Shown here piece after piece: positions 987 through 47,139 of a stretch of DNA of 64,000 nt (the first letter of the stretch is position 1; every line of letters begins with the position of its first letter). Under the pieces are notes generated by a model. The model saw only the letters and a list, made by a program, of their open reading frames with translations, ran no database searches and was not told the origin of the DNA. The position numbers and the translations under genes are program-made. This DNA is from Asterella californica. Taxonomy: Eukaryota > Streptophyta > Marchantiopsida > Marchantiales > Aytoniaceae. The stretch spans positions 18,022,001 through 18,086,000 of the forward strand of contig JAYKYS010000009.1 in assembly GCA_036924285.1 (NCBI GenBank). Direction: 5' to 3'.

Positions 987-1555
987 TGTGAAGCCTTGGT
1001 TTTTCATTTTTGTTAATTAATTGCTTAGTTGTAAAGTAAATAAGAAGAATAGATGATAGAAGATAAACGATATGAGTAGAATAATGTTAATTAGAAGTTT
1101 AGGGAAGAATCCCAGTTCTGGAGGAATTTATCGAATCTATGAAGACATTGAAAGATGATTTTCTCATAGATGAGTTCCTCGGGCGAAGAGCTTTCTAACG
1201 ATATGTTGTGCGAGGCAATCGGAGACCGAACGACGAAGTTACAGTCGACTGAAGAATGACAGTCGTCAAGAGGAAAAAAACCTAACTTCAGCACGTGCAG
1301 GAAAGCCTATCGCGGGATATAAGCAAGGTAACAAGTTGTTTACTTTACTGTTTTACTATTCCCAGAGCGAGCGATAGCAGGGCGCAGAGAGCCGCATTTA
1401 CCGAACGCCGAAGTACATCAGTTACGGGCGAGGAAGCCAATTCGCGAGTGATTGGCGAGGAAGCCAATTTGCGAAGAAGTACATCAGTTACGGGCGAGGA
1501 AAGGATTGCAGCGAGGAATCCGTTTGTAGCGAAGATCGTTGCAGTGATCCTAGGG

Positions 1556-3034
1556 ATGCGCGGGATGCAGACGACTAAGGCGCCGAGGCTCCGAGCCTTT
1601 GAAGTTAATCGACTAGCTCTTCGCCGCTATGACAAGGACCTCGAGGAAATGGGGTTATCGTTCCTCTTGCTTCCTTGGTGGGGGATGGTTTCCTCCAAAT
1701 TGGTGCATGAGTTGAAGATGTGCAAACAACATCCGGCCGATGATCACTATGGGCGACCCTGTAACTGGACCGAAGCTCACTGGACCAGTGTCTTGGGAAT
1801 CGACGATGCGGGACGAGAAGGTGATCTTCTTTTTGACACCATAGCTGCCGCTGCTTCGCCCGAAGCAGTGAAGACCTTCCCGAATCTGTTCAAGGAATTA
1901 CCTCTAGGGAGGAACGGTTACCGGACAAGCGATTACTGCGATCCGAAGAAGAGAGAAGTAGCCGATGCGATTATGGCGATCTTCAGGCCACGAAGAACGA
2001 CATACATGTCGAACTGGCAAATCAACTTCATCGAGCAGCTCTTCGCCGGACGAAGAGCACATTGGGCGAGGATCATCCACCGACATGTGTTGAAGCTTTG
2101 GAACAAGAACGACTTGGCGTACATAGGACCCTTTGTATCGGTGTTCTATATGGGGATGGGGTTGCTATCTGAGGCACAACAGACGAAGTTAGATTTTACC
2201 GCAATTGCCGAGGATGAAGAATTTCAAGTAGTGCAGACTCCAGCCCGAGACGCGCAACTTGAGAAGCTCTTCGATGAAATTGAGGCCGAGGAAGCAGCGC
2301 CCGAAGTAGCGACCGAAGTAGCGGCTGATACTACACCGAGGCAGGAGGCATCGACTTCAACACCAGCTGCAGAGAAGACGCCCGAAGCAGTTACTCCGGC
2401 CGAAGACGAAGATGTAGTCGAGGTATCTCCTCCGATTCGCAGGAGTGGAAGGAAGAAACCTCTGGAAGAGACGCCGAGGTCTGTGCAGAAGTCTCGGAAG
2501 AAGATGAAGATGACGAAGACGGTTCGGACCGATGATGAAGCAGTTGAAGAGGCGACCGAGGAAGCCGAGGAAGGGAGTACTCCTCAAATGGAGAAGGACG
2601 TTGCCACTACACCGAAGAGCGCTGTTTCTCCATCGACAGTTGGTGAGATCGAACGATTAGCTTCTTCGGCGGATTACCTCAGGGATGTAGTCGTACCGCT
2701 ACTGCACAGCTTGGAAGCGAACCGCGGGACCTACGAGGAAGTTGTCGGTAGGAAGCTGAACCTGGCAGAGTTAGTGCATACGATGCACTTCGGCCGAGGT
2801 AACTGGAAGGAAGAGAAGGAGAATCTGAGAGCTGCACTTCGCATGGCCCAGAAGGAGGCGCAGACGAGGACCGATGAACTGAAGAGTGTGGCATCAGAGA
2901 AGGAGGAACTTCTTCGGCAGAAGATTGATCGCGACAACGAGCATGAGAAGGTTCTGTCTTTGACGAAGAAGGAGTTGGACGAGGTACGACTTCAACGGGA
3001 TAGGAACCTGGATGTTGTCGCGGAGATGACGTAG
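1556..3034 (+). CDS. U3-encoded protein of element B (5' LTR copy)
   Basis: The first ATG in this frame is at 1556; the frame is open upstream to 1295 but has no ATG there. The 492-codon product has an N-terminal globular part (GLSFLLLPWW, then GRPCNWTEAHW at 1751-1783, GRNGY at 1907 followed by DPKKR), a Glu/Thr/Pro-rich linker with a basic RRSGRKKP patch, and a Lys/Glu-rich coiled coil. After the TAG at 3032 the same frame stays open to 3397, adding about 120 helical residues, so the ancestral protein was probably near 613 residues. Both LTRs share this TAG, so it predates insertion. The same protein family occurs in the LTRs of family E. I see no transmembrane segment. Function unknown; the helical domain faintly recalls families annotated as putative plant transposon protein. 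Confidence 0.75.
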   Translation: MRGMQTTKAPRLRAFEVNRLALRRYDKDLEEMGLSFLLLPWWGMVSSKLVHELKMCKQHPADDHYGRPCNWTEAHWTSVLGIDDAGREGDLLFDTIAAAASPEAVKTFPNLFKELPLGRNGYRTSDYCDPKKREVADAIMAIFRPRRTTYMSNWQINFIEQLFAGRRAHWARIIHRHVLKLWNKNDLAYIGPFVSVFYMGMGLLSEAQQTKLDFTAIAEDEEFQVVQTPARDAQLEKLFDEIEAEEAAPEVATEVAADTTPRQEASTSTPAAEKTPEAVTPAEDEDVVEVSPPIRRSGRKKPLEETPRSVQKSRKKMKMTKTVRTDDEAVEEATEEAEEGSTPQMEKDVATTPKSAVSPSTVGEIERLASSADYLRDVVVPLLHSLEANRGTYEEVVGRKLNLAELVHTMHFGRGNWKEEKENLRAALRMAQKEAQTRTDELKSVASEKEELLRQKIDRDNEHEKVLSLTKKELDEVRLQRDRNLDVVAEMT

Positions 3035-3428
3035 GAGATCGAAGATCTGAAGCGACGCACAATCAAGGCCGAGGAGCTAAGTGCTCAACTTCGGAGTAGG
3101 GTCGAGCCGGTGCTGAAGAACTACTTCGCCGTTGAGCTGGATACCGAAGAAGTGGGATTTCTTCGCCAGGTTAGAGAGGAGTTCTTAGCTGCAGATGCGG
3201 AGGGTACTTCAGCTAGGAACCGGGTAGCTAGGTTAGGACAGCGAGTAGTTAGAGAGCTTAGGGAGGTTAGAGCAACCGTAGAGTTCTCAGTTTGTGAGAT
3301 AGGTAGAGAGTTAGCGATAGAAAGCGGTGTCGTTCCTGGTGTCGTTTCGGACACAGGACCTTCATCCGACGGTCCAGAAGTACGCCCGACTTCTTAGGAA
3401 GAAGATCCGTCATCTTCGGGAAAATCTG

Positions 3429-3435
3429 TATATAA
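3429..3435 (+). promoter_or_regulatory. TATA box of the element B LTR
   Basis: TATATAA lies downstream of the U3 protein frame and about 620 bp before AATAAA, which is the expected order for U3-R. The same box is at 22584-22590 in the 3' LTR. Confidence 0.65.
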
Positions 3436-4051
3436 GCGTTGTGTTGTTCGTATTCAGGACCTCTATGTGTTTTATCATTCTTGAGTTTTCTATTTCCTGA
3501 GTTTACGGAGCCATTGAGTGTTTTATCTTCTTCGAAAGATTTACCTACGAAGTATCGTAGTTTGCTGTGGTAGGAATTAGTCTGGGTGCCGAAGAATTTG
3601 CTGTTGACATTTGAAATCAGAGTAGAACGTTTACGGCGAAGACTGAGAATAGACCAGCATCTGCGGAGTTAGTTTCCTACGAAGACGTTCTTGGGCGAAG
3701 TTGAATTCGGAAGAAGTTGTTCTTTGGTGGAACACTTAGGAAGAAGTTCAATCTAGTTCTTCGGCGGAAGAAGAGTCTTCTTTGCCAGAGTTTTCCGAGA
3801 GCAGTAATAGTGAAAGTAACTTAGTGTGAAGATACTTAGCGTTTATGGTGTTAGAGGCTACTTAGTAGCACTTCAGCAGTACTTCCTCGTGTGACATTTC
3901 CGTCCGTGGCTCTGTTTCTCTGTTGTTTATCTGTTTCTTGAGGTCCATGACCTGTTCAGTACCTGTTATGTTTATTTGTCAGGATTGTCAACTCTGTCTT
4001 GTTGGATAGATCTGAGTTTGATCTCTACCGGGACTGATTTCTGCCCGTGAG

Positions 4052-4057
4052 AATAAA
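4052..4057 (+). promoter_or_regulatory. Polyadenylation signal in the element B LTR
   Basis: AATAAA, 127 bases before the LTR end. The 3' LTR copy, at 23207-23212, would be the working one. Confidence 0.5.
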
Positions 4058-4204
4058 AGACAACTATAAAGAATCACCTTTGTCACGTGTTTACTACTTT
4101 TGGATGATCTTTACTTGCATCTCTGTGGGTTCGATCCTTAAATTACTACTTTCGAGCATCTTTTGGTTTTCTTGTGTGTTACATATAGAAGACTGAATAA
4201 ATTT

Positions 4205-4222
4205 TGGCGCCGCTGCCGGGGA
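4205..4222 (+). other. Primer binding site of element B, complementary to tRNA-Asp
   Basis: TGGCGCCGCTGCCGGGGA is the complement of the 3' end of plant tRNA-Asp(GUC), with one difference from the angiosperm form as I know it. It lies 21 bases after the LTR. The same site follows the family E LTR at 51358. Its last bases are shared with the start of the inserted A block. Confidence 0.85.
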
Positions 4223-6983
4223 AGTAGGTGTTTGAGATGTTGTCCGTCACCACCGTAACCTCACTCGGCAGGAGGTAGTGCTCCCACCGTTTGAGACACC
4301 AGATGACTGCCAACATCTCCTGTTCGTGTGTCTCCCATCGGGCTTCCTGTTCGGACAATCGATGGCTCTCAAACGCCACGGGATGATCCCCTTGAATGAG
4401 GACTCCCCCTATGGCTAATTTGGAGGCATCCGTATGTATCTCGAATGGTTTTCCCAAGTCAGGGAGTACTAGGACAGGTGCTTCCGTAAGAGCCTTCTTA
4501 AGTGCCTCAAAGGCCTTTTGCTGGGGCAACTTCCACTCAAAAGTTCTCTTGGCATCTCGGAGCAAGTCAAAAATAGGAGAAGCTAAGTGCCCGAAGCCCC
4601 TTATGAACTTCCGAAAGTACGAGGCTAATCCCAGGAATGACCTCACCTCCGAAACCGTCTTCGGGATGGGCCAGTGCTGGATTGCTTGCACCTTACGTTT
4701 GTTTATGTGCACCCCGGTCCGGTCAATCAAGCAACCCAGAAAGACTACGCTTTCCTGACCGAAGGAGCACTTGGAGGCTTTCAGCACTAACTTCTCTTTC
4801 TCTAATTTGCGGAACACGGCCTCTACGTCTGCCAGATGCTTTCCCCATGTAGGTGAGTAGACTATGATGTCATCCAGGTAGACAACAACCGAATCATCCA
4901 GTTGGTCACGTAGGATGTCATTCATCAACCTACAAAAGGTCGCAGGGGCATTCGAGAGTCCGAAAGGGAGTACGGTGTACTCGTAGAGTCCGTACCGAGT
5001 TATAATGGCGGTTTTCTCTTCATCCCCTTCCGCTATTCGGATCTGGTGGTACCCTGAGCGCAGGTCCAATTTGGTGAAGAACCGGCCTTTCACCAAACGG
5101 TCCATGGTCTCATCCATCAATGGAATTGGGTACTTATTTTTGATAGTCACCTTGTTTAAGGCGCGGTAATCTCCACACAATCGGAGTGTACCCTCCTTCT
5201 TGGAGACAAACATAATTGGGGTAGCATACGGGGAACAACTTGGCCGCAAAATCCCTTGTTCCACCATTTCCCCCAACTGTGCCTTAAGTTCTTGCAACAG
5301 GTTGAGGGGCATCCTTCGGCACCGTCCAACTGGTGGCGCGGAGCCGGGGATAAGGTCGATCTTGTGATCGATCGCCCGTCTTGGTGGTAATACGTTGGGA
5401 AGTGTTTCCGGGAGAAGGTGTGAATACCTAGTTAAAAGCTGTTGCATCTCTTTGCGGATGGGGAGTTGAGACACTCTGTCTTCCTCGTCCACCTCCTCCA
5501 GGGTTTTGTCCGGGAGGACCATCCAGGCCTCCTCGGCTCCCTTCATAGATTTCTTAAACTGTCGGGCGGTACATACCATGTATGCCACCCGACAGGACCG
5601 GTATTGCGGTTCAGTAGCCTTCTGGGGCTTTAGGTCTATCTCTAGACTTGTGTGATAGTCGATTCCTCTAGGATCCTTCAACCAGAGGTGGCCTCTGGTC
5701 AGGTCGATGCATGCATGATTCTGACTTAACCAAGCCCAGGATAGAATCCCGTCGGTTTTAGCTAATGGCATGACCAAGAAATCGTGGGCTCGGGTGATGC
5801 CGGCACACTCCACAGATAACTGAGTTATCATGTGAGTGACCTGGGATGTTCCTTGCACAAACCTAACAACTAGGGGCGCAGCAAGCTTCTTCGGAATCAA
5901 ATGCAACTCAAGTACTTTGCGAGAAGACAATACACTCACATCCGCCCCCGTGTCTACTAACATGCGAACATCCTGCCCCTTTATCCCAACTTGTACCCAA
6001 GGCAAACATGCTGGCTGTTCAGTGTTACCTCTTTCTGCATTCGGAGGATTCTCCCGGATTGGCGCCTCGGCATGGTTCACCTCGAACTCGGGATGCTCCA
6101 GGGCGGGTTCCTCAGCAATAGCCGCCCTCATGTTAGGCGCACCCATCCGGGCTGGGCACTCCCTCGCGAAGTGTCCTGGTCGGCCGCAGTGGTAGCAGCC
6201 ATCTCCTCGGGGCGCGGCGGCTGCAAACGGCGCATTCGGTCTCGGCGGGCCCCTATGGGGTCCTCCGCCCTGTCCCCTCCTTGGTCTCTGGTTCCCGCGG
6301 GTGGCTCCTCCTCCTTGCTGTCGGCGTTCAGGCGGGCGCTGTCCTCCGGTCGATGGTCCTCGGTCGGGCGCTTGGGGCGGTGGTGGTCGCGGTCCACCCG
6401 AGCCTCCGACAGGGTTGTAGGACCTCCGGCCCTTGCTGTTGGAGCCTCCGCGGAATTTCCGAAAGGGTCGAGACTCTCTCGGCTTCTCCCCGGTTCTTCC
6501 CTTCTGTCGATCGGCCTCCAGCAACTCCAGGTGGGCGCATACATCCTCTAGAGGCTTGTCCCACCCGAACCTGGTCATTTCGTAACTGTACCACCCTTGG
6601 AGACCTCGGTGGAAGAGGTACTTCTTCTCGTTGGCGTCGGTAAGGGCCAACGCATTCCACAAGTGGCCGAACTTCTGGCTATACTCCCGGATGCCTCCCG
6701 TTTGTTTCAACCCGTCCATCTCCTGACGGTAATGGCTGTATTCGTTGCGGGGAACTAGGTAAGTGCGGAGCCGGTCCCGGAGCTCCTCCCAAGTACTGAG
6801 CTCGGGACGCCCTTCATTGATCCGCTCCCGTTGGTAGTTTGTAAGCCATTTCAAGGCGTCTCCCCTAAGTCGACTCACCGCATAGGCAAACCGACCTCGT
6901 TTGGAGTAGTGACTCAAGAAATTGTCCATCGATGCCACCCAAAGCTCGAACTTGGAGAGTGACGGCTCCCCATAGTATTCTTG
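4220..6983 (-). repeat. Left arm of the A palindrome (2764 bp)
   Basis: This is the reverse complement of 7742-10505 at equal length, with only scattered substitutions. The arms are separated by 758 bases holding the gag N-terminus, leader, primer site and LTR end. Confidence 0.92.
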
Positions 6984-7538
6984 CGGCTTTTCGGGGGATG
7001 GTGCCCTCCGGTGACGTTTCCTCCCTCTCGATCGACGGCCACTCAGTCCGCTGTCTGTGCTAGATTCACCCGGACTCGAACTGCTCGAGTTACTGGACCC
7101 TCCATCGGGGCCACCAGCGCTAGGTGCGCTCGGACCAGCGCGCTGCGGCTCCGGGCCCGTTGCTCCCGCAGGCTGATCTGCGGGCGCGGTCGTTTGTGCA
7201 GGCGTCGGGGGTGGTGCCGGTACAGTCGGATCGGGTGACGGCGCTGGGGGAGTTCCGGCAACTCCGAACCTGGCTCGCAGGTTTCGCAGGAACACTTCCA
7301 CGTCTTGGAGTGTCTGCCTGACTTCAGCACTTGTCGGCGGCGTCGCCGACGTTGGATCCCTGGCTGGCGGTTCGGCCGGACTGGAAGACGACCCGGCACC
7401 AGAGGCTCCCGAAGCGGCGGGTTGGGGTCCATAACCAGACGGCGTATGGGACGCTATCGGTTCTGGAAACGGTGGGTTCGAAGGTGGCGGTCGAGACGGC
7501 CCTGCCCCGGACTGTACTCTCCCGCGCCGCGGTGGCAT
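4220..7538 (-). pseudogene. Element A gag-pol, minus copy, truncated in RNaseH
   Basis: The gag start ATG is at 7538-7536 (MPPRRGRVQ). A proline-rich N-terminus of about 180 residues is followed by the gag domain (YYGEPSLSKFELWV), a CCHC knuckle ([14 protein letters not shown]), an aspartic protease (DTGADVS), and RT with YLDD. The RNaseH starts (HTDASKLAIGG) and breaks at VVTDNISNTYF, where the sequence runs into the B primer site. No stop or frameshift interrupts the frame before that point, so this arm is better preserved than the plus copy, including a TGG codon where the plus copy has TGA. Everything after the early RNaseH is missing, so it cannot be functional alone. Confidence 0.9.
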
Positions 7539-7662
7539 TGGCTCGGTTCCCCAACCTCGTGCGACTGTGCGACGATCCCGTATGGATGTCCAGGCGTCGT
7601 AGCTCGAACGACTGTAACTCCTGCAGCGATTCGACTTGTGCGTGGTAAGGCTCACGACCAGA

Positions 7663-7744
7663 GCTCTGATACCATCTGACGCGGATCCCGGGTCTGGATG
7701 CGGCGTCGCGGGTGCCCTCGGCGGAAAACACCGAAAATTCACAA
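7663..7744 (-). repeat. Initiator-Met primer site and 3' end of an A LTR (minus copy)
   Basis: On the minus strand, TGGTATCAGAGC (7674-7663) is the canonical plant tRNA-iMet primer site. It is preceded by the last 68 bases of the A LTR (7744-7677), which match 13740-13807. The rest of this LTR is missing; the next base belongs to the plus-strand gag. Confidence 0.9.
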
Positions 7745-10505
7745 GAATACTATGGGGAGCCGTCACTCCCCAAGTTCGAGCTTTGGGTGGCATCGATGGA
7801 CAATTTCTTGAGTCACTACTCCAAACGAGGTCGGTTTGCCTATGCGGTGAGTCGACTTAGGGGAGACACCTTGAAATGGCTTACAAACTACCAACGGGAG
7901 CGGATCAATGAAGGGCGTCCCGAGCTCAGTACTTGGGAGGAGCTCCGGGACCGGCTCCGCACTTACCTAGTTCCCCGCAACGAATACAGCCATTACCGTC
8001 AGGAGATGGACGGGTTGAAACAAACGGGAGGCATCCGGGAGTATAGCCAGAAGTTCGGCCACTTGTGGAATGCGTTGGCCCTTACCGACGCCAACGAGAA
8101 GAAGTACCTCTTCCACCGAGGTCTCCAAGGGTGGTACAGTTACGAAATGACCAGGTTCGGGTGGGACAAGCCTCTAGAGGATGTATGCGCCCACCTGGAG
8201 TTGCTGGAGGCCGATCGACAGAAGGGAAGAACCGGGGAGAAGCCGAGAGAGTCTCGACCCTTTCGGAAATTCCGCGGAGGCTCCAACAGCAAGGGCCGGA
8301 GGTCCTACAACCCTGTCGGAGGCTCGGGTGGACCGCGACCACCACCGCCCCAAGCGCCCGGCCGAGGACCATCGACCGGAGGACAGCGCCCGCCTGAACG
8401 CCGACAGCAAGGAGGAGGAGCCACCCGCGGGAACCAGAGACCAAGGAGGGGACAGGGCGGAGGACCCCATAGGGGCCCGCCGAGACCGAATGCGCCGTTT
8501 GCAGCCGCCGCGCCCCGAGGAGATGGCTGCTACCACTGCGGCCGACCAGGACACTTCGCGAGGGAGTGCCCAGCCCGGATGGGTGCGCCTAACATGAGGG
8601 CGGCTATTGCTGAGGAACCCGCCCTGGAGCATCCCGAGTTCGAGGTGAACCATGCCGAGGCGCCAATCCGGGAGAATCCTCCGAATGCAGAAAGAGGTAA
8701 CACTGAACAGCCAGCATGTTTGCCTTGGGTACAAGTTGGGATAAAGGGGCAGGATGTTCGCATGTTAGTAGACACGGGGGCGGATGTGAGTGTATTGTCT
8801 TCTCGCAAAGTACTTGAGTTGCATTTGATTCCGAAGAAGCTTGCTGCGCCCCTAGTTGTTAGGTTTGTGCAAGGAACATCCCAGGTCACTCACATGATAA
8901 CTCAGTTATCTGTGGAGTGTGCCGGCATCACCCGAGCCCACGATTTCTTGGTCATGCCATTAGCTAAAACCGACGGGATTCTATCCTGGGCTTGGTTAAG
9001 TCAGAATCATGCATGCATCGACCTGACCAGAGGCCACCTCTGGTTGAAGGATCCTAGAGGAATCGACTATCACACAAGTCTAGAGATAGACCTAAAGCCC
9101 CAGAAGGCTACTGAACCGCAATACCGGTCCTGTCGGGTGGCATACATGGTATGTACCGCCCGACAGTTTAAGAAATCTATGAAGGGAGCCGAGGAGGCCT
9201 GGATGGTCCTCCCGGACAAAACCCTGGAGGAGGTGGACGAGGAAGACAGAGTGTCTCAACTCCCCATCCGCAAAGAGATGCAACAGCTTTTAACTAGGTA
9301 TTCACACCTTCTCCCGGAAACACTTCCCAACGTATTACCACCAAGACGGGCGATCGATCACAAGATCGACCTTATCCCCGGCTCCGCGCCACCAGTTGGA
9401 CGGTGCCGAAGGATGCCCCTCAACCTGTTGCAAGAACTTAAGGCACAGTTGGGGGAAATGGTGGAACAAGGGATTTTGCGGCCAAGTTGTTCCCCGTATG
9501 CTACCCCAATTATGTTTGTCTCCAAGAAGGAGGGTACACTCCGATTGTGTGGAGATTACCGCGCCTTAAACAAGGTGACTATCAAAAATAAGTACCCAAT
9601 TCCGTTGATGGATGAGACCATGGACCGTTTGGTGAAAGGCCGGTTCTTCACCAAATTGGACCTGCGCTCAGGGTACCACCAGATCCGAATAGCGGAAGGG
9701 GATGAAGAGAAAACCGCCATCATAACTCGGTACGGACTCTACGAGTACACCGTACTCCCTTTCGGACTCTCGAATGCCCCTGCGACCTTTTGTAGGTTGA
9801 TGAATGACATCCTACGTGACCAACTGGATGATTCGGTTGTTGTCTACCTGGATGACATCATAGTCTACTCACCTACATGAGGAAAGCATCTGGCAGACGT
9901 AGAGGCCGTGTTCCGCAAACTAGAGAAAGAGAAGTTGGTGCTGAAAGCCTCAAAGTGCTCCTTCGGTCAAGAAAGCGTAGTCTTTCTGGGTTGCTTGATC
10001 GACCGGACCGGGGTACACATAAACAAACGTAAGGTACAGGCAATCCAGCACTGGCCCACCCCGAAAACGGTTTCGGAGGTGAGGTCATTCCTGGGATTGG
10101 CCTCGTACTTTCGGAAGTTCATAAGGGGCTTCGGGCACTTAGCCTCTCCCATTTTTGACTTGCTTAGAGATGCCAAGAGAAATTTTGAGTGGAAGTTGCC
10201 CCAGCAAAAGGCCTTCGAGGCACTTAAGAAGGCCCTTACGGAAGCGCCTGTTCTAGTGCTCCCCGACTTGGGAAAACCATTCGAGATACATACGGATGCC
10301 TCCAAATTGGCCATAGGGGGAGTTCTCATTCAAGGGGATCACCCCGTGGCCTTTGAGAGTCACCGATTGTCCGAACAGGAAGCTCGATGGGAGACACACG
10401 AACAGGAAATGTTGGCAGTCATCTGGTGTCTCAAGCGGTGGGAGCACTATCTCCTACCGAGTGAGGTTACGGTGGTGACAGACAACATTTCGAATACATA
10501 CTTCC
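7742..10505 (+). repeat. Right arm of the A palindrome (2764 bp)
   Basis: Inverted partner of 4220-6983. It starts inside gag, at the CAA shared with the truncated LTR. Confidence 0.92.
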
Positions 10506-13821: not shown

Positions 13822-13893
13822 TCTGGTCGTGAGCCTTACCACGCACAATGCTGAAATTATCCAAGATCAGTGAACAGAAGTCCAGAGACATGT

Positions 13894-16800
13894 ATGTCGA
13901 CGGGCAAGCCTGATCCTCCTGGAAACGTGCAATCTGAGAGAGACAGGAGGCGAGAAAGACGAGCAGAATATCGAGAACAAATCCTGGAAGAAGCTCGTCG
14001 GTTGAAAGAAGAGCATAAGAAGAGAGAACGAGGTTGGAGAACACCTAACTCAAAAGAATGGAAGAGGAAGGAACCAAGCCTTGGTGAATCAAGTTCACCC
14101 CGGACACCAAAGTCATTACCTCCAACCCCTTTCGAATCTGCTCAAAGAGAACTTGACTTCGAAGAAGTTACCACTCGGCTAAGTGCTGAGAACGAACATC
14201 CAGAAAGTGAAGTAGGGTGGAAACCTTTCCCCGAAGTCAATACCGTTTTATATCCGCAGTTGTTTACTCCTGACCCAGAGATAGGAAGTACTTCTGCAGA
14301 TCAAGATCAGTTTACTTCTTCGAATGAAGAAGCTGCGACTAAGGCAGTAGAAGCTGTTACTACCTTAGTGGAACTTTTACAGGCGCAGGAACTTATTCCT
14401 CAAGCACTGGTGCGGGAAATCCTTCCGTTAACTCCAGTGACTCAGAAAGACAACGCTGCTCCTTACTTACAGCCAACCACAGGACCGTCCATATTCAAGA
14501 AGAGACAAGCCCAAGCAGCTGCTGCTGCGGGTATTGCCCTTGCTGTCCTCGTTCAAGCTGCAGTACCAGCGCCGATTCCAGCCCCTGCCAAGATAGCAAC
14601 TCAAGTTCCAAGGGCTCCTTTTGTTCGAAGTATGGCAGGCCAACCTATCACGAAACATGGATACCCAAAGTTCAGAGGAGGATCTTCAGATGACGATGAG
14701 GATGCAGATGCTTACATTAAATTGTTTGAATCTGTATCTGTCACTAATAAGGAAGATGCTGAACCAGATCGTCTGCGAATCTTTCCGAGTCTTCTCAGGA
14801 AGAGAGCACGCAGCTGGTACAATCATGCAAATAGAGTACCAGGAGACATCGATACTTGGGACAAGCTGAGGACAAAGTTCTTAGAGCGATTCCGGGAAAT
14901 TGGGTACAACCGTCAAGTTTTAGGAAAGCTGACCAGACTGATCAGAGGAAAGAAAGAGAGCTTAAAAGATTACGTTCAAAGATTCTACAATCTACTGGAC
15001 AGAATTCCGAGGATGGGTACAGCCAACCCATACTCTATGGATCAAGCCACAGAATGGCTAGTTACAGGCTTACCGATTGAGATGGAGATCTGGTGTCGCA
15101 GAGGAAAGATGGACGCCATCGAAGAGGTTGTTGCTTCAGCAGAAGCATTTGAAGCGTCCACCCTCGGAAGTAAAGGAGGATGGATAAAAGGGAAGAAGAA
15201 AGGAAAGAGAGAAAGGAAGGAAGGTAAAACGACTCAAAGGAAGAAGCAGAAGAAGGGTCGCAGAGAACCTTCTTCCTCCGAGGAATCTTCTGACGATGAG
15301 TCTTCTTCGGCCGAAGCCGAAGAGTCTTCATCGGCGAGTTCATCTTCTTCGAGCGAAGAAGAACGAAGAATGAAGCGCAGTTCTTCGTCCAAAGAAAAGA
15401 AAAGCTCGAAGGAAAAGAAGGGCAAGAAAAAGGGGGATAGTAATCAACTCATGGAGGAGATGATTAAAGGGTTTGCAGACTTGAAAGTGCAGATGGTACG
15501 ATCTCCTGAAGGGAGAAAATCACCTGCTACATCTCGTTCAAGTTTATGGTGTACGACATGCGGTAAATCAGGACATGCTAATACGGAATGTAAGAACAAC
15601 AGAACATTTCAAGCACAATCGCTTGAATGGGCACCAGCATTCGAATCATATTATAGCTCATTCTTTGTGGAAACTCCGGACGAAGTATATGGAGTATTAA
15701 CGAATCCACCCCCAACACAGCCAGCAATTACCCCAATTCAACCCATACCAATTCAAAGGTTTGCACCAAAAGAGAGGGCCCTGAATGTATCTCAGAAACG
15801 TTTGATGAGTCCGCCAGGAGCAAATAAACCACCACCCCATGGGTCTTGTTTTAATTGTGGCAGTTTGGAACATTGGTCACCAAACTGCCCTCAACCAAAG
15901 AAATCGATGGGATATGTAGCACTTTGTGGAAGGTGTCATCAGCCAGGACATGCCACAGCAGATTGTACTAACCCACCCGCAGAGAAGAGAGGGGTTCGCT
16001 TTGATCCCAAAACAGAACGTCCTGGAGAAGCTCAACTGCACAAGGTAGACTTGGAAGAATGGAAAGCCGCTGGAGATGAAGGATGGCCACCAGAAGAAAC
16101 TTGGGTTTGTAAAGTGGACACCAGAAGCTCTTTCAAGACCAAGCGAAAGGCAGAAGAAGCGCCCATAAAGACTCAATCGAAGAAAGAGCTGAAGAAGCAG
16201 AAGAAGGCTGCGGAGAAAGCCAAGAAGAAGATTGTTGAGGAGGAAACTGAGGAAGAGGAAGAAGAAATACTGAAGAGCGTAAATCCTCCGAGACTACCAG
16301 TTGACATTACGGACGAAGTCCGCGAACTCCTGAAGAAGGAGTTACTACGAGCAGGAACTTCGGCAAGAGAAGCTGATACAACTTCGGCCGAAGTACCAGA
16401 ACAATCAACTTCGTCCGTACCCAAGATTTTCCGTTCTTCGGCCACTGAAGACAAGACTGCAGCCAAGAACGAGGAGGTTCCGAAGAAGCACAGTCGACCG
16501 GAACTTATGAAGAAAGAACCTGTGGCAGTACCACACTATGATGTGGTAGCTGATCTAGAAACACAGAAGGCTAACATAAGTTTCAAACAGCTGATTGAAG
16601 ATAACAAAATTTACAGAAAATTGTTACTTCAAGCACTGAAGAAACCCACTAAAGCAAGAAGATCAAAGTTGCCTTCTCTGTTTCACATCGAGGCAGAAGA
16701 CCTGGGATCTCCAGAAGTGGAAGTGGAGGTTGCAGGCTGTGTAATTAGGAAAGTGCCAATTGACTCCGGATCAGGAGTCAACATAATGACAGAAGACACG

Positions 16801-17262
16801 GCACACGCGTTGGGTTTCAGTAAGTTTGAAGAAACTCAGCGGGTGTTACGGCTGGCAGATCAAACGAGAAGACGACCACTTGGGCTACTGCGCAACATTC
16901 CCACCTTGATAGGCGGAATTTCTTTTAAACTCACCTATGTTGTGCTGCGCCCTTTGGTTAAGTCTGGTTATCAAATTTTGATTGGGAGGCCATGGTTGTA
17001 TGGTGCCAAAGTACTAACAGATTGGTACCGGCACCGTTTACAGTTCAAAGATCCACAGAAACCAACTGATAAGGCTGTGATGGTTTCCTGGAAGAAGATA
17101 ACACATCAGGGCGAAACAGAGTCGACTGATGAAGGTTACACTTCGGGATCTGATTCATCAACAAGTAGCGCAGGAGAAAGGAAAGGAGACCCTTATTCGA
17201 TGGTCAACTATCTACAGTGTTATGAAATTGATGAAGAAGAAGATATGAACGAGGCCGAATAG
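13894..17262 (+). CDS. gag: Gag-protease polyprotein of element B
   Basis: The ATG at 13894 (MSTGKPDPPG) is the first in frame. The 1122-residue product has a charged N-terminus, a gag capsid-like domain at about residues 255-390 (PKFRGGSSDDDEDADAYIK, RARSWYNH, FLERFREIGY), a Ser/Glu/Lys-rich linker, three CCHC knuckles (CTTCGKSGHANTEC near 552, CFNCGSLEHWSPNC near 652, CGRCHQPGHATADC near 678), a Lys/Glu-rich stretch, and an aspartic protease (IDSGSGVNIM, Asp near 956). It would form the particle, bind RNA and process the polyprotein. It ends in UAG followed by CAA UCA, and the downstream RT is in the same frame with no ATG at its start, which argues for readthrough. The frame has no other interruption. 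Confidence 0.92.
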   Translation: MSTGKPDPPGNVQSERDRRRERRAEYREQILEEARRLKEEHKKRERGWRTPNSKEWKRKEPSLGESSSPRTPKSLPPTPFESAQRELDFEEVTTRLSAENEHPESEVGWKPFPEVNTVLYPQLFTPDPEIGSTSADQDQFTSSNEEAATKAVEAVTTLVELLQAQELIPQALVREILPLTPVTQKDNAAPYLQPTTGPSIFKKRQAQAAAAAGIALAVLVQAAVPAPIPAPAKIATQVPRAPFVRSMAGQPITKHGYPKFRGGSSDDDEDADAYIKLFESVSVTNKEDAEPDRLRIFPSLLRKRARSWYNHANRVPGDIDTWDKLRTKFLERFREIGYNRQVLGKLTRLIRGKKESLKDYVQRFYNLLDRIPRMGTANPYSMDQATEWLVTGLPIEMEIWCRRGKMDAIEEVVASAEAFEASTLGSKGGWIKGKKKGKRERKEGKTTQRKKQKKGRREPSSSEESSDDESSSAEAEESSSASSSSSSEEERRMKRSSSSKEKKSSKEKKGKKKGDSNQLMEEMIKGFADLKVQMVRSPEGRKSPATSRSSLWCTTCGKSGHANTECKNNRTFQAQSLEWAPAFESYYSSFFVETPDEVYGVLTNPPPTQPAITPIQPIPIQRFAPKERALNVSQKRLMSPPGANKPPPHGSCFNCGSLEHWSPNCPQPKKSMGYVALCGRCHQPGHATADCTNPPAEKRGVRFDPKTERPGEAQLHKVDLEEWKAAGDEGWPPEETWVCKVDTRSSFKTKRKAEEAPIKTQSKKELKKQKKAAEKAKKKIVEEETEEEEEEILKSVNPPRLPVDITDEVRELLKKELLRAGTSAREADTTSAEVPEQSTSSVPKIFRSSATEDKTAAKNEEVPKKHSRPELMKKEPVAVPHYDVVADLETQKANISFKQLIEDNKIYRKLLLQALKKPTKARRSKLPSLFHIEAEDLGSPEVEVEVAGCVIRKVPIDSGSGVNIMTEDTAHALGFSKFEETQRVLRLADQTRRRPLGLLRNIPTLIGGISFKLTYVVLRPLVKSGYQILIGRPWLYGAKVLTDWYRHRLQFKDPQKPTDKAVMVSWKKITHQGETESTDEGYTSGSDSSTSSAGERKGDPYSMVNYLQCYEIDEEEDMNEAE

Positions 17263-20103
17263 CAATCACAGCTAGGTCACGGGAGTGCAGAGACCAGTCA
17301 TACAGATGGTATAGTCCTTCCAGGAGCATCCCAAGACCTACTAATAAGCGAAGGTAAGAGCCTCAAGATTTCTGTTGTGGTACAAGGAGAAGAGTTGGAA
17401 GTGTATCGTCAGATGCTGATCCATTACCAAGATGTCTTCGCCTGGACTGTGGAGGACATGAAGGGGATACCTGCACAGTGGGTAGAACATCGTATCGACC
17501 TCATTGAAGGATCAGTACCTGTACGACAGAGGCAGTACCGACTCAACCCAAAATACTCTTTGATGGTTAAAGACGAGATAGATAAGTACCTAAAGGCAGG
17601 TATTATTTTCCCTGTGTTAAGCAGCGAACGGGTAGCACCCATAGTGGTGGTACCCAAGAAGCAAACAGGAAAGATAAGAGTCTGTCAAGATTTCAGAAAG
17701 CTGAATGCAGCAACCAAGAAGGATCATCACCCTTTACCTTTTACTGATACCATTTTGGATCATGTATCTGGAAAGGAATGTTACAGCTTTTTGGACGGGT
17801 TTTCAGGGTACAATCAAGTGTCCATAAGAGAGCAAGATAAGGACAAGACTACCTTTACTACAGATTGGGGCACTTATGCTTATCACAAGATGCCTTTTGG
17901 ACTATGCAGTGCACCAGCTACTTTTCAGAGGATGATGACCTCAATTTTCCAAGATTATTTGCGAAAATTTTTAGAGATCTTTATAGATGATTTTTGTGTT
18001 TTTGGCACACGTGAAGAACATGCAGCGTGTTTAGCCAAAACCTTTCAGAAGTGTAGGGAAGCCAGACTTGCATTACATCCTGAGAAGTGTTTCTTCGTGA
18101 TGACTGAAGGAATACTTCTTGGACATAGAGTATCAGGTCGAGGCATAGAAGTAGATGTAGAGAAAGTTAAAGTGATACTATCCCTACAGCCCCCTACTGA
18201 CATCAGCGAGTTGAGAGCCTTCCTAGGACATGTTGGATATTACAGAAGGTTCATCAAAGATTACGCCATACTTGCTGCGCCGCTGACAGAATTGCTGAAG
18301 AAGACGACAGAGTACCATTGGCACGAGAAACAGCATGAGGCGTTTGAGACGTTGAAGAAGAAGTTGGCAGAAGCACCTGTCATGCGACCCCCAGACTGGG
18401 AGAGACCTTTTCAAGTGTATGTAGATACTTATGCGTTTGCTATAGGAGTGGTTCTCAGTCAGAAAGATGATGAAAAGAGAGACCACCCAATCTACTATGC
18501 GAGTAGACAACTTTCAGCAGCAGAAAAGAACTACACCACTACTGAACGTGAAGCGTTGGGAATGGTGTACTCAGTAAAGAAGTTCAGACATTACCTTCTT
18601 GGCTATGAGTTTGTCTTTCATGTGGATCATTATGCGTTGAAGCATCTAGTACAGAAGTCAGACTTGTCAGGAAGGATAGCAAGATGGATGTTGTTACTTC
18701 AAGAATTCACTTTCACAGTTCAGACCAGACAAGGGATTCATCATGAGAATGCTGATTACTTGTCTCGACTGAGAACGGGAGAACGAGTGGATACTGTGGC
18801 AGACGACTTTCCAGATGAGGAATTGTTTCAGCTGACCGTAGCACCTGCTACGAAGTACTATGATCTGTACAGATATTTACAGACTTTACTGTGCCCAGAA
18901 GAAATGGACGCTGAACAGCGAACAGTCTTCATACATCAGGCGGGACCCTACGAGATGAAGAACGGGATATTGTTCAAAAGAGGGCCTGATGAAGAACTTC
19001 GAAGATGTCTAGAAACGCATGAGATACCACAAGTGGTAGGAGCACTACACTCGGAACCTGAAGGTGGACACTATGCGCTGAGAAACACTGTGAAGAAGAT
19101 CCTCTCAGCTGGATACTGGTGGCCAACGATGTACAAAGATGTTCAGGAGATCATCAAGAAGTGTGATAACTGTCAACGAGTGGGTAAGCCTACGCCAACC
19201 ACTCAGTGGCCGTTACATCCGATACTCCCATTAGCACCATTCGAGAAGTGGGGGATTGATTTTGTAGGACCTATACAACCTGCAACACGCCGCACAAGAA
19301 GAAGGTACATACTGATAGCTACTGATTATGCAACGAAGATGGTTGAAGCAGCAGCTACCAAGAAAGACGACGCAGCCACTGTGGCTGAGTTTCTGTACAC
19401 ACAGATCATTACTCGATATGGATGCCCACTGGAGTTGGTGAGTGACCGAGGTACACATTTTTTAAACAAGATGATAGAAGAACTGACAGATTACTTTGGT
19501 ATAAAACACCGGAAGACAACACCGTACAATCCAAAAGCTAACGGATTGACAGAGAAGTCTAATGGAGTGTTATGCAAGATTCTGAACAAAGTGACAGCGA
19601 ATCATGCATATGATTGGGATACAAAGTTACCGGCTGTCTTATGGGCGTTTCGAAATGCAGAGAAGATAACGACCCGCCAGACACTCTTTTTCCTAACATA
19701 TGGCATGACACCGATTATGCAGGTTGAATTTGATGTGCCTACTTACAGAATCCTGTCTGAAGATAGACTGTCAGTGGAGGAGAGTCAACTGTTACGACTT
19801 AAGAGTCTGATGACACTTGAGGAAGACCGTGAAGAGTCTAAACGACTAACGGAGATCATTCAAATGAAGCGGAAAGAGAAGCACGATAAGAAGATCCGCA
19901 AAGTGGACATCAAGGATGGAGATTTAGTACTAATGTATGACAGTAGGTACACCAAATTTCCAGGGAAGTTACACTTACGTTGGATGGGTCCTTACAAAGT
20001 AACGCGTCGTTATAGTAATGGTTCGGTTCAGTTGGAAGAACTCGATGGAACATTGTTAGCTACCCGAGTCAATGGGTGGAGGATCAAGAGATACTACTCT
20101 TAA
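17263..20103 (+). CDS. pol: RT-RNaseH-integrase of element B, in frame after the gag-protease UAG
   Basis: The frame is open for 947 codons to the stop at 20101. The first ATG is about 150 bases in, after conserved sequence, so it is most likely made as a readthrough extension. RT has the FIDDFCVFG active site near 17980, the Athila/Tat form. RNaseH keeps its acidic residues (YVDTYAFAIG, TEREALG, HVDHYAL, NADYLSR). Integrase has the HHCC zinc module (GGHYALRN to CDNCQ), a DDE core (GIDFVGP, VSDRGTHF, GLTEKSNG) and a GPY-type tail (LRWMGPYKV). No chromodomain follows. The stop lies 38 bases before the 3' LTR. All catalytic residues look intact, so this copy could be active. Confidence 0.93.
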   Translation, partial: QSQLGHGSAETSHTDGIVLPGASQDLLISEGKSLKISVVVQGEELEVYRQMLIHYQDVFAWTVEDMKGIPAQWVEHRIDLIEGSVPVRQRQYRLNPKYSLMVKDEIDKYLKAGIIFPVLSSERVAPIVVVPKKQTGKIRVCQDFRKLNAATKKDHHPLPFTDTILDHVSGKECYSFLDGFSGYNQVSIREQDKDKTTFTTDWGTYAYHKMPFGLCSAPATFQRMMTSIFQDYLRKFLEIFIDDFCVFGTREEHAACLAKTFQKCREARLALHPEKCFFVMTEGILLGHRVSGRGIEVDVEKVKVILSLQPPTDISELRAFLGHVGYYRRFIKDYAILAAPLTELLKKTTEYHWHEKQHEAFETLKKKLAEAPVMRPPDWERPFQVYVDTYAFAIGVVLSQKDDEKRDHPIYYASRQLSAAEKNYTTTEREALGMVYSVKKFRHYLLGYEFVFHVDHYALKHLVQKSDLSGRIARWMLLLQEFTFTVQTRQGIHHENADYLSRLRTGERVDTVADDFPDEELFQLTVAPATKYYDLYRYLQTLLCPEEMDAEQRTVFIHQAGPYEMKNGILFKRGPDEELRRCLETHEIPQVVGALHSEPEGGHYALRNTVKKILSAGYWWPTMYKDVQEIIKKCDNCQRVGKPTPTTQWPLHPILPLAPFEKWGIDFVGPIQPATRRTRRRYILIATDYATKMVEAAATKKDDAATVAEFLYTQIITRYGCPLELVSDRGTHFLNKMIEELTDYFGIKHRKTTPYNPKANGLTEKSNGVLCKILNKVTANHAYDWDTKLPAVLWAFRNAEKITTRQTLFFLTYGMTPIMQVEFDVPTYRILSEDRLSVEESQLLRLKSLMTLEEDREESKRLTEIIQMKRKEKHDKKIRKVDIKDGDLVLMYDSRYTKFPGKLHLRWMGPYKVTRRYSNGSVQLEELDGTLLATRVNGWRIKRYYS

Positions 20104-20128: not shown

Positions 20129-20141
20129 GAGAGGGGGAGTA
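20129..20141 (+). other. Polypurine tract of element B
   Basis: GAGAGGGGGAGTA, directly before the TGTG start of the 3' LTR; the expected plus-strand primer. Confidence 0.85.
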
Positions 20142-23100
20142 TGTGAAGCCTTGGTTTTTCATTTTTGTTAATTAATTGCTTAGTTGTAAAGTAAATAAGA
20201 AGAATAGATGATAGAAGATAAACGATATGAGTAGAATAATGTTAATTAGAAGTTTAGGGAAGAATCCCAGTTCTGGAGGAATTTATCGAATCTATGAAGA
20301 CACTGAAAGATGATTTTCTCATAGATGAGTTCCTCGGGCGAAGAGCTTTCTAACGATATGTTGTGCGAGGCAATCGGAGACCGAACGACGAAGTTACAGT
20401 CGACTGAAGAATGACAGTCGTCAAGAGGAAAAAAACCTAACTTCGGCACGTGCAGGAAAGCCTATCGCGGGATATAAGCAAGGTAACAAGTTGTTTACTT
20501 TACTGTTTTACTATTCCCAGAGCGAGCGATAGCAGGGCGCAGAGAGCCGCATTTACCGAACGCCGAAGTACATCAGTTACGGGCGAGGAAGCCAATTCGC
20601 GAGTGATTGGCGAGGAAGCCAATTTGCGAAGAAGTACATCAGTTACGGGCGAGGAAAGGATTGCAGCGAGGAATCCGTTTGTAGCGAAGATCGTTGCAGT
20701 GATCCTAGGGATGCGCGGGATGCAGACGACTAAGGCGCCGAGGCTCCGAGCCTTTGAAGTTAATCGACTAGCTCTTCGCCGCTATGACAAGGACCTCGAG
20801 GAAATGGGGTTATCGTTCCTCTTGCTTCCTTGGTGGGGGATGGTTTCCTCCAAATTGGTGCATGAGTTGAAGATGTGCAAACAACATCCGGCCGATGATC
20901 ACTATGGACGACCCTGTAACTGGACCGAAGCTCACTGGACCAGTGTCTTGGGAATCGACGATGCGGGACGAGAAGGTGATCTTCTTTTTGACACCATAGC
21001 TGCCGCTGCTTCGCCCGAAGCAGTGAAGACCTTCCCGAATCTGTTCAAGGAATTACCTCTAGGGAGGAACGGTTACCGGACAAGCGATTACTGCGATCCG
21101 AAGAAGAGAGAAGTAGCCGATGCGATTATGGCGATCTTCAGGCCACGAAGAACGACATACATGTCGAACTGGCAAATCAACTTCATCGAGCAGCTCTTCG
21201 CCGGACGAAGAGCACATTGGGCGAGGATCATCCACCGACATGTGCTGAAGCTTTGGAACGCGAACGACTTGGCGTACATAGGACCCTTTGTATCGGTGTT
21301 CTATATGGGGATGGGGTTGCTATCTGAGGCACAACAGACGAAGTTAGGTTTTACCGCAATTGCTGAGGATGAAGAATTTCAAGTAGTGCAGACTCCAGCC
21401 CGAGACGCGCAACTTGAGAAGCTCTTCGATGAAATTGAGGCCGAGGAAGCAGCGCCCGAAGCAGCGACCGAAGTAGCGGCTGATACTACACCGAGGCAGG
21501 AGGCATCGACTTCAACACCAGCTGCAGAGAAGACGCCCGAAGCAGTTACTCCGGCCGAAGACGAAGATGTAGTCGAGGTATCTCCTCCGATTCGTAGGAG
21601 TGGAAGGAAGAAACCTCTGGAAGAGACGCCGAGGTCTGTGCAGAAGTCTCGGAAGAAGATGAAGATGACGAAGACGGTTCGGACCGATGATGAAGCAGTT
21701 GAAGAGGCGACCGAGGAAGCCGAGGAAGGGAGTACTCCTCAAATGGAGAAGGACGTTGCCACTACACCGAAGAGCGCTGTTTCTCCATCGACAGTTGGTG
21801 AGATCGAACGATTAGCTTCTTCGGCGGATTACCTCAGGGATGTAGTCGTACCGCTACTGCACAGCTTGGAAGCGAACCGCGGGACCTACGAGGAAGTTGT
21901 CGGTAGGAAGCTGAACCTGGCAGAGTTAGTGCATACGATGCACTTCGGCCGAGGTAACTGGAAGGAAGAGAAGGAGAATCTGAGAGCTGCACTTCGCATG
22001 GCCCAGAAGGAGGCGCAGACGAGGACCGATGAACTGAAGAGTGTGGCATCAGAGAAGGAGGAACTTCTTCGGCAGAAGATTGATCGCGACAACGAGCATG
22101 AGAAGGTTCTGTCTTTGACGAAGAAGGAGTTGGACGAGGTACGACTTCAACGGGATAGGAACCTGGATGTTGTCGCGGAGATGACGTAGGAGATCGAAGA
22201 TCTGAAGCGACGCACAATCAAGGCCGAGGAGCTAAGTGCTCAACTTCGGAGTAGGGTCGAGCCGGTGCTGAAGAACTACTTCGCCGTTGAGCTGGATACC
22301 GAAGAAGTGGGATTTCTTCGCTAGGTTAGAGAGGAGTTCTTAGCTGCAGATGCGGAGGGTACTTCAGCTAGGAACCGGGTAGCTAGGTTAGGACAGCGAG
22401 TAGTTAGAGAGCTTAGGGAGGTTAGAGCAACCGTAGAGTTCTCAGTTTGTGAGATAGGTAGAGAGTTAGCGATAGAAAGCGGTGTCGTTCCTGGTGTCGT
22501 TTCGGACACAGGACCTTCATCCGACGGTCCAGAAGTACGCCCGACTTCTTAGGAAGAAGATCCGTCATCTTCGGGAAAATCTGTATATAAGCGTTGTGTT
22601 GTTCGTATTCAGGACCTCTATGTGTTTTATCATTCTTGAGTTTTCTATTTCCTGAGTTTACGGAGCCATTGAGTGTTTTATCTTCTTCGAAAGATTTACC
22701 TACGAAGTATCGTAGTTTGCTGTGGTAGGAATTAGTCTGGGTGCCGAAGAATTTGCTGTTGACATTTGAAATCAGAGTAGAACGTTTACGGCGAAGACTG
22801 AGAATAGACCAGCATCTGCGGAGTTAGTTTCCTACGAAGACGTTCTTGGGCGAAGTTGAATTCGGAAGAAGTTGTTCTTTGGTGGAACACTTAGGAAGAA
22901 GTTCAATCTAGTTCTTCGGCGGAAGAAGAGTCTTCTTTGCCAGAGTTTTCCGAGAGCAGTAATAGTGAAAGTAACTTAGTGTGAAGATACTTAGCGTTTA
23001 TGGTGTTAGAGGCTACTTAGTAGCACTTCAGCAGTACTTCCTCGTGTGACATTTCCGTCCGTGGCTCTGTTTCTCTGTTGTTTATCTGTTTCTTGAGGTC

Positions 23101-23338
23101 CCTGACCTGTTCAGTACCTGTTATGTTTATTTGTCAGGATTCTCAACTCTGTCTTGTTGGATAGATCTGAGTTTGATCTCTACCGGGACTGATTTCTGCC
23201 CGTGAGAATAAAAGACAACTATAAAGAATCACCTTTGTCACGTGTTTACTACTTTTGGATGATCTTTACTTGCATCTCTGTGGGTTCGATCCTTAAATTA
23301 CTACTTTCGAGCATCTTTTGGTTTTCTTGTGTGTTACA
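20142..23338 (+). repeat. 3' LTR of element B (3197 bp)
   Basis: Same length as the 5' LTR and nearly identical; followed by ATAGA. TATATAA is at 22584 and AATAAA at 23207. Confidence 0.95.
20711..22189 (+). CDS. U3-encoded protein of element B (3' LTR copy)
   Basis: Same protein as at 1556-3034, with a few substitutions (for example Lys to Ala near 21258 and Asp to Gly near 21348). In the full-length RNA this copy lies 3' of pol and is the one carried by the genome, since the 5' U3 is not transcribed. The TAG ending it at 22187 is shared with the 5' copy. The open continuation beyond it has an additional CAG to TAG change at 22321 that the 5' copy lacks. How it would be translated (subgenomic or spliced RNA) is not evident from the sequence. 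Confidence 0.75.
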   Translation: MRGMQTTKAPRLRAFEVNRLALRRYDKDLEEMGLSFLLLPWWGMVSSKLVHELKMCKQHPADDHYGRPCNWTEAHWTSVLGIDDAGREGDLLFDTIAAAASPEAVKTFPNLFKELPLGRNGYRTSDYCDPKKREVADAIMAIFRPRRTTYMSNWQINFIEQLFAGRRAHWARIIHRHVLKLWNANDLAYIGPFVSVFYMGMGLLSEAQQTKLGFTAIAEDEEFQVVQTPARDAQLEKLFDEIEAEEAAPEAATEVAADTTPRQEASTSTPAAEKTPEAVTPAEDEDVVEVSPPIRRSGRKKPLEETPRSVQKSRKKMKMTKTVRTDDEAVEEATEEAEEGSTPQMEKDVATTPKSAVSPSTVGEIERLASSADYLRDVVVPLLHSLEANRGTYEEVVGRKLNLAELVHTMHFGRGNWKEEKENLRAALRMAQKEAQTRTDELKSVASEKEELLRQKIDRDNEHEKVLSLTKKELDEVRLQRDRNLDVVAEMT

Positions 23339-23343
23339 ATAGA
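23339..23343. repeat. Right target-site duplication of element B (ATAGA)
   Basis: Matches 982-986. Confidence 0.93.
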
Positions 23344-39351: not shown

Positions 39352-39819
39352 TGTCGGAGTGTGATCCGTCTACCTAGGAAAGCGCTGAGCTTCTGGCTGT
39401 GGTTGTTTACTCAAGAGGTTGGCTTTCAGGTCACAACAGGAGCTATAAACACTCACACAGGAGTGTAGGATCCTCTAATATGCTCAAAAAGCGAAATTTA
39501 GGTCTCACTAGTAGTAATAGGTTTAGACGGTGAACTTTGGCACTCAAAGAGAGGAAAACTATGAAGGTTTAGACTTCTAAACTTCCCCTACATGTAAATG
39601 AGGTACTACTGAACACACACACTAAGTTTCAGCATGAGATTGAATTCTAGCACCGAGATGTTGACAGAAAAGTTCTGAGTAAGAGAATTATGGCAATTTC
39701 TGGTACCTAGACAGCTATTCTGACCTAGAACACAGAATTGGCTGGATGAATTTCAAATATTCTCACATTATTTGAAGTCTAGTTTCATTTTTCACGTCGA
39801 GTTCATCAAAAAGAGAGTA
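39352..39819 (-). repeat. Truncated third LTR and primer-site remnant of a tandem G copy
   Basis: 39352-39783 repeats the first 432 bases (plus strand) of the G LTR. It joins directly to a copy of the G primer-site region (39791-39808, one mismatch), which abuts the next LTR. This is what remains of LTR-internal-LTR-internal-LTR after deletion of nearly all of one internal region. Confidence 0.85.
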
Positions 39820-41192: not shown

Positions 41193-41206
41193 TCCACCCC
41201 CTCTGA
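41193..41206 (-). other. Polypurine tract of element G
   Basis: On the minus strand TCAGAGGGGGTGGA, directly before the LTR start. Confidence 0.8.
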
Positions 41207-42429: not shown

Positions 42430-42560
42430 CCGCTGCGGTATACCTCCTTGTAGCTTAGGGCGCTTCCATAGATGTCCTCCATGTAAAAAGTAACCATAAG
42501 CTATTCTACGGATCCTCGTGAAATTTACATCAGACTAGCCTTCTTGCCTTTCCAGTGAAC

Positions 42561-43307
42561 TCAAATAGCGCCCAAGATCCAACCACTCGCCATCATACAC
42601 AGTTTCCTCAAAAAACTCCAACGGGGCTGCAAAACAGCTTCTATCTCTTCTAGCAAGAACACTAGATAGAACTCTGTTCCCACATTCTCTTGGTCATCTA
42701 TCATTTCCTTCTCACCGTAATACCTAGTCCTTGATAACATATCTGCCACAGGATTGTCTTTTCCTGCAATATGTCTAAACTCTGGGTTCAAGGACTTGAT
42801 ATATGCTATCCACCTCAACATAGCAATATCTGGAGTTGTACAGTTAGTGATCATTCCCAAGAGAGGTAAACAATCTGTCTCCACAACCATAGGTGCTCCT
42901 ATCAAGTATTCCTTATCACTCTTCATCGTAGTAACTACTCCCCATAGCTCTCTCTTGACGTGAAGGTAGTCTCTCTGCCGTGAACTTAATACCTTAGCAC
43001 CAAAACGCACCACATATCTATCCTCATCGTCTTGCCGTACAGCCCATCCAATGCCAATAGGACTAGTATCAACAGTACGGATAACAGATCTGCCCAACTC
43101 ATATGTTACCTCCGTAGAGTTGGTGGTGAAGCCAAAAGATCCTTCAACTTCCTCATAGACTCGCTTTGCTCCTCTTGCCACTGAAATCTTTGCCCCTTCC
43201 TCAGCAGCTTGTACAATGGATCTGCTACATGAGCAAAGTGTGGAATCCATATATGGTAAAACACACATGCACTTAGAAACCTTCTCACCTCGGTAACTGA
43301 CCCACAT
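42561..43307 (-). pseudogene. Element G RNaseH
   Basis: The frame carries VIRTVDTSPIGIGWAV, SSRQRDYLHVKRELWG, VVETDCLPLLGM and NPVADMLSR, covering the RNaseH acidic residues and the connection to integrase. It overlaps the end of the RT frame in another register (a shift near 43120), and a stop at 42561 separates it from integrase. Confidence 0.83.
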
Positions 43308-47128: not shown

Positions 47129-47139
47129 AAAAGAGAGAA

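Follow-up and report, generated by a model that had tools for sequence, protein, structure and literature searches.

A protein-coding gene inside the long terminal repeats of a liverwort Ty3/gypsy retrotransposon, kept by purifying selection and homologous between two repeat families

The analysed stretch of Asterella californica DNA (64,000 nucleotides, contig JAYKYS010000009.1, positions 18,022,001 to 18,086,000 of the forward strand; hereafter the window, to which positions refer unless stated otherwise) contains an element, here called B, whose long terminal repeats (LTRs) carry a long open reading frame (ORF) in their U3 part. B is identified as an LTR retrotransposon of the Ty3/gypsy type by its paired TG..CA LTRs, target site duplication, primer binding site (PBS), polypurine tract and the order of reverse transcriptase (RT), RNase H and integrase; all its features named below are on the plus strand. 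The 5' LTR (987–4183, of which U3 takes up the part as far as about 3460 and R-U5 the rest) has the termini TGTGAAG..GTTACA and is 99.6% identical to the 3' LTR (20142–23338), and the duplication ATAGA lies outside both (982–986 on the left, 23339–23343 on the right). In the 5' LTR copy the frame covers 1556–3397, beginning 569 bp into U3 downstream of a TATA-like GATATAAG (1316–1323) and ending 31 bp before the LTR TATA box TATATAAG (3429–3436), which agrees with the original prediction, made from the letters of the window alone, of a long frame upstream of the LTR promoter; an AATAAA (4052–4057) is found in the R/U5 part. The interior comprises a tRNA-Asp-like PBS (4205–4222), the gag-protease frame (13894–17262), the pol frame (RT, RNase H and integrase, 17413–20103) and the polypurine tract (20129–20141), directly followed by the 3' LTR. 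As pol ends 38 bp before this LTR, there is no space for an extra gene between them, and the extra gene is inside the LTR, whose 3' copy (frame 20711–22552) is the one downstream of pol in genomic RNA; the post-pol position, parallel to that of sag in mouse mammary tumour virus (MMTV), holds for B. A Pfam scan of gag-protease and pol at E-values up to 1 returned native RNase H models only and no additional RNase H, and six of the ten best among 3429 relatives of the B pol were Riccia sorocarpa proteins (66–75% identity), which points to a liverwort near Riccia, probably other than R. sorocarpa, as the most likely host. The letters of the B PBS resemble those published for Calypso/Diaspora, and the putative tRNA-Asp assignment is based on these letters and on published descriptions. 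The leader of the window copy harbors a nested element (4220–10505), a large palindrome of gag-pol sequence, whose two 2775-bp arms (4220–6994 and 7731–10505) show 98% complementarity.

A search of the 516.7-Mb assembly scored 87 places with B-type copies of the U3 gene among 8520 candidates, hence this number is a lower bound; 60 copies (L009–L068, including the two of the window) were read and 27 remained unread. Neighboring copies on the same strand within 30 kb form 17 pairs, 14 of which are spaced by 9.1–9.6 kb, i.e. by one LTR plus the interior. A diagnostic border (PBS, polypurine tract or matching flanks) was identified in 54 of the 60 copies: 12 are 5' LTRs followed by a PBS, 23 are 3' LTRs preceded by a polypurine tract, 4 have both borders (tandem elements with a common LTR) and 15, flanked on both sides by the same 5 bp, are solo LTRs, while 3 of the 6 unclassed copies exhibit normal post-LTR sequence. 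TGTGAA is present at the LTR border in 59 copies, and none of the 60 copies read (6 of them unclassed; 27 of the 87 unread) lies outside LTR sequence, which answers one of the checks proposed with the original prediction. One locus (L012–L014, C71 5108015–5128498) forms an array in which three LTRs alternate with two interiors, and two of these LTRs show no difference in the 3167 bases compared.

Neither a stop nor a frameshift interrupts the frame in 36 of the 60 copies (5' LTRs 7/12, 3' LTRs 11/23, both-border copies 4/4, solo LTRs 9/15, unclassed 5/6), and intact copies encode 606–613 aa from the ATG of 1556, apart from two slightly shorter ones (596 and 597 aa). The window copy itself is interrupted by a TAG at codon 493 (3032–3034) in both LTRs, leaving 492 aa, and its 3' LTR has a second TAG at codon 538. 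Among nine LTR pairs, two share the same stop in both LTRs (at codon 493 in the window element and at codon 209 in a second one) and one has a stop in a single LTR. Where both LTRs share a stop, the gene was probably already broken in the inserted RNA, barring a later conversion between the LTRs, and movement with a broken gene fits a protein working in trans.

The ratio of nonsynonymous to synonymous substitution rates (dN/dS), calculated as a ratio of sums for the 60 copies (1770 pairs, not independent of each other), is 0.19–0.25 in each of five bins with dS above 0.02 (1741 of the 1770 pairs), i.e. not near 1, the outcome that had been named as a refutation of the original prediction. It rises to 0.57 at dS below 0.02 (29 pairs), and the higher value in the closest pairs fits decay after insertion. 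The out-of-frame controls at dS above 0.1 gave 1.10 (shift of one base, 300 pairs) and 1.39 (shift of two bases, 109 pairs), and the differences in pairs with dS above 0.1 are distributed over the three codon positions as 54552, 39614 and 126098. A window scan of 14 copies more than 4% apart (locus coordinates, with the ATG at 700 and the stop at 2539) revealed dN/dS of 0.13–0.36 in the gene frame from 610 to 2410, with 0.45 and 0.58 in the edge windows, and 0.60 or more everywhere else in the LTR and in both alternative frames. Within the protein, the N-terminal domain is the most constrained (0.16), followed by the linker (0.31) and the coil (0.32). The B frame is kept by purifying selection, and because of the strength of this selection and the 87 scored copies it is not a chance frame.

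The window also contains a second family, E, which according to the original prediction holds a homologous frame in its LTR. Such a frame is indeed found inside LTRs of 5.84 kb (L076) and 5.97 kb (L075), i.e. longer than the window shows, with both borders read in two of the eight E loci; the L076 LTR is preceded by a pol frame end and a polypurine tract, the L075 LTR is followed by a PBS-like site, and in L073 the left border alone was read. In the window the E genes are decayed: the first part of E1 (38285–39351, plus strand) has a stop at 38504 and then a frameshift, and its coiled-coil and acidic part (48513–49734, plus strand) follows a nested insertion. As the E promoter was not located, the E gene can be assigned to the LTR but not specifically to U3. 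The proposed homology of the B and E proteins is borne out by 26–29% identity, by 42 invariant columns in an alignment of nine B with four E rows and by the presence in both of the named motifs GRPxxWTExxW, GRNG[YW]x4Yx2PKKR and MG[LD]L. Across nine E copies, of which one is partial, the dN/dS of the domain is 0.40 when read in frame, as opposed to 0.75 and 0.99 when read in the alternative frames. The frame is LTR-borne, under purifying selection and homologous between B and E. A stop interrupts the domain in six of the nine E rows, and in four (L069, L073, L074 and L075) Trp codons of WTEDWW are turned to stops, which suggests recurrent C-to-T decay. The insertion that splits the E1 gene is 9.2 kb long (39352–48512), and the minus-strand element nested there (39322–48512) has 1.4-kb LTRs that are 98.7% identical and an extra partial LTR repeat. 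The E1 PBS (51358–51375, plus strand) starts 18 bp past the E LTR end (about 51339), and another decayed copy of the homologous LTR gene, E3, is found on the minus strand (60489–62507). The minus-strand frames at 52837–55892 look like a decayed reverse transcriptase of a long interspersed nuclear element (LINE), a tentative label.

In one full-length copy the U3 protein consists of a 215-aa N-terminal domain (net charge +6), an acidic linker rich in Ser, Thr and Pro (-15), a basic patch (+8), an acidic stretch (-9) and a 180-aa coil with a 3.5-residue hydrophobic period; the conserved N-terminal domain is rich in predicted helix. The basic patch between acidic stretches looks like a nuclear localization signal, judged by eye and by charge. 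Searches of 5.8 billion proteins with the window protein and with a 13-row alignment, restricted to candidates with common words, found no relatives among about 8000 scored candidates per search, in the same database that yielded the pol relatives; no convincing Pfam family, no relative in the PDB and none in a search of viral contigs was found either. An AlphaFold prediction with seven window-derived rows, a check suggested together with the original prediction, yielded a model with a mean pLDDT (predicted local distance difference test) of 46, and the best Foldseek match in the PDB has an E-value of 1.6, so that fold prediction was carried out and gave no confident fold.

Coding constraint begins upstream of the ATG at 1556. 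A stretch of 190 bp (1366–1555, 63 codons) between a putative 3' splice site and this first ATG is open and in phase in 52 of the 60 copies, mostly without an ATG, and its dN/dS in 14 copies is 0.37, whereas the two alternative frames give 1.08 and 0.96; with all 60 copies the values are 0.45 vs 0.87 and 0.76. Its indel events are multiples of three in four of six cases, vs 4/14 and 4/17 in two stretches farther upstream. The left edge of the constrained stretch is TGTTTTACTATTCCCAG, the putative acceptor, whose motif TATTCCYAG is conserved in 55 of the 60 copies and whose pyrimidine fraction (0.80) is the highest among the U3 YAG sites of the one copy scanned (next 0.65). A donor scan of one copy, from the predicted transcript start to about 60 nt into gag, gave ACAT|GTATGT as the best-scoring site (3.7 bits, next 2.2); this site overlaps the gag ATG, its 12-mer is present in 14 of 15 5' LTR copies, and it is the only one among the top five with an in-phase upstream ATG (44 nt away), although the sixth, which scores below zero, has one too. 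A donor inside the gag start, assumed from the codon pattern, was rejected on reading the sequence, and the scored donor just upstream was adopted. All 15 5' LTR copies with a PBS, the window copy apart, have about 90 nt between the LTR and the gag ATG, and their leader (13848–13913 in the window) contains a short upstream ORF (uORF) overlapping the gag start codon.

These observations can be combined into a model for B, which rests on sequence analysis. The 3' LTR part of the genomic transcript would supply the gene, by way of a spliced subgenomic mRNA whose leader exon (coding part 13848–13891, from an ATG that precedes the gag ATG by 46 nt to the donor) is joined in frame to the acceptor 190 nt before the first ATG; the predicted exon 2 (20521–22552, 3' splice site 20520|20521) includes the U3 frame, with TAG at codons 493 and 538 in this copy. 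Unspliced RNA would then give Gag-Pol and spliced RNA the U3 protein, by analogy with env in retroviruses, and the gene start is most likely in the spliced leader exon, not at ATG 1556. Because of its charge pattern, its coil and the fit with trans action, the product may be an oligomeric nuclear accessory factor that acts in trans and has element RNA or LTR chromatin as its most likely target, with expression, export or anti-silencing as candidate roles. We give about even chances to this reading as a whole, i.e. an LTR-borne accessory gene (in B located in U3), expressed from a spliced subgenomic mRNA and encoding an oligomeric nuclear trans-acting factor rather than an envelope.

Several observations weigh against this interpretation. 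The splice-site matrix used approximate frequencies and was applied to one copy, and an in-frame junction is expected by chance in one frame of three. E has neither the upstream extension nor a convincing acceptor beside its frame (acceptors were scanned in the window copy only). Constraint in B fades toward the C-terminal end (0.58 in the window 2260–2560 of the scan), and in E it has disappeared by the final window of its scan (0.84). A value of 0.40 occurs upstream of the E frame in one window whose reading frame contains 6% stops, which shows that individual windows may be misleading. Counted per copy, 52 of the 63 indels in the B frame are multiples of three, but per independent event only 6 of 17 are, with no enrichment; the frame-breaking events are single-copy, and the four events common to several copies are all multiples of three. 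Finally, the nine of 15 solo LTRs that keep an intact frame do so although a spliced message is impossible there; these may simply be young.

The intact solo LTRs are accommodated by a different explanation, in which the gene has its own promoter in U3 (GATATAAG, about 240 bp upstream of the ATG), like P2 of MMTV Sag, and every LTR, whether 5', 3' or solo, is a self-contained gene that ends at the AATAAA of the R region. In 57 of the 60 copies a TATA-like box is found upstream of the acceptor, the AATAAA at 4052 is in place, and the MMTV P2 promoter is a precedent (PMC9412291). This explanation appears unlikely, though not to be neglected, as it does not account for the constraint over 63 codons that mostly lack an ATG or for the conserved pyrimidine tract with CCCAG. 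Rather unlikely, too, is that an Athila/Calypso-type env-like gene, serving in particle assembly or transfer, was absorbed by an upstream shift of the LTR boundary. Such a gene would have the same post-pol place as env-like ORFs, and the tRNA-Asp-like PBS resembles that of Calypso and Diaspora, for which tRNA-Asp is named (PMC1142308), but one full-length copy has no membrane segment (KD19 maximum 1.5), and hmmscan of 13 members at E-values up to 5 detected none of the Pfam eORF families PF03078, PF10536, PF20167 and PF04195. A relation to Transposase_32 was also considered but found no support, as the U3 domain aligned with a single PF20167-like segment of P0099 no better than shuffles (hhalign score 11.5, vs 9.8–15.0 for 10 shuffles and 9.4–12.9 for three other P0099 segments), a weak test with one sequence. 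The heptad period of the C-terminal part could also indicate a Gag-like structural protein with a coiled coil, incorporated into particles together with Gag; this we regard as improbable, since the basic patch flanked by acidic stretches resembles (by eye and charge) a nuclear signal, and the element whose two LTRs both have the frame interrupted at codon 209 implies that the protein is probably dispensable in cis. A captured host gene fragment or a chance open frame with no function for the element, for which the absence of homologs in the searched databases might speak, is highly improbable given the purifying selection across subfamilies, the presence in two families at 26–29% identity and the lack of any copy outside LTR sequence among the 60.

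LTRs are regarded as regulatory DNA, and it is the interval from pol to the LTR in which additional genes of plant elements are looked for. Among the papers listed by searches of an open-licence library, none describes an ORF inside a plant LTR in its title or at the start of its abstract, and in the available part of a survey of LTR structure (PMC3601003) the terms ORF and open reading frame are absent. A selected gene in U3 implies that annotation may miss such genes, that an intact protein gene can be present even in a solo LTR, and that plants have separately evolved a genome layout regarded as characteristic of some retroviruses; the U3 protein family is an orphan in the collections searched. 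If the spliced-mRNA model proposed above is correct, a plant Ty3/gypsy lineage would have independently acquired a layout of the complex-retrovirus type, with a U3 accessory gene, a spliced mRNA and a nuclear trans regulator kept in at least two LTR families since their divergence, in which splicing removes the gag ATG and the uORF becomes the N terminus. This broader proposal is tentative, and we consider it somewhat short of an even chance. The predicted junction makes the role of extra ORFs in plant LTR elements testable by RNA sequencing of the host.

In MMTV, the sag gene lies in the 3' LTR of genomic RNA. The likeness to B is that of an accessory gene in U3, in B between the LTR start and the LTR promoter, and concerns placement, with no sequence relation claimed; MMTV is a mouse retrovirus, and Sag acts on immune cells. 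Moreover, the MMTV gene has an internal U3 promoter (PMC9412291), whereas splicing is favoured for B. Among plant elements, the eORF-3'F class of OTA elements includes Athila ORF-1, the plant mobile domain and Transposase_28 (PMC6317226), and Transposase_32 is a further plant eORF family from Pfam. These share with the B gene the status of an additional frame downstream of pol in Ty3/gypsy elements, with no known function, but the B gene is inside the LTR, is under clear purifying selection and does not match those Pfam families. Previously described elements of liverworts have no extra RNase H, as is the case for B pol in the Pfam scan, and no U3 gene is mentioned for them in the text consulted. 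Retrosat2, RIRE3 and RIRE8 of rice, whose LTRs reach about 3 kb or more and which possess an ORF0, resemble B in combining large LTRs with an additional ORF; the rice ORF0, however, is located upstream of gag-pol (PMC3485330), whereas the B gene is carried by the LTR itself.
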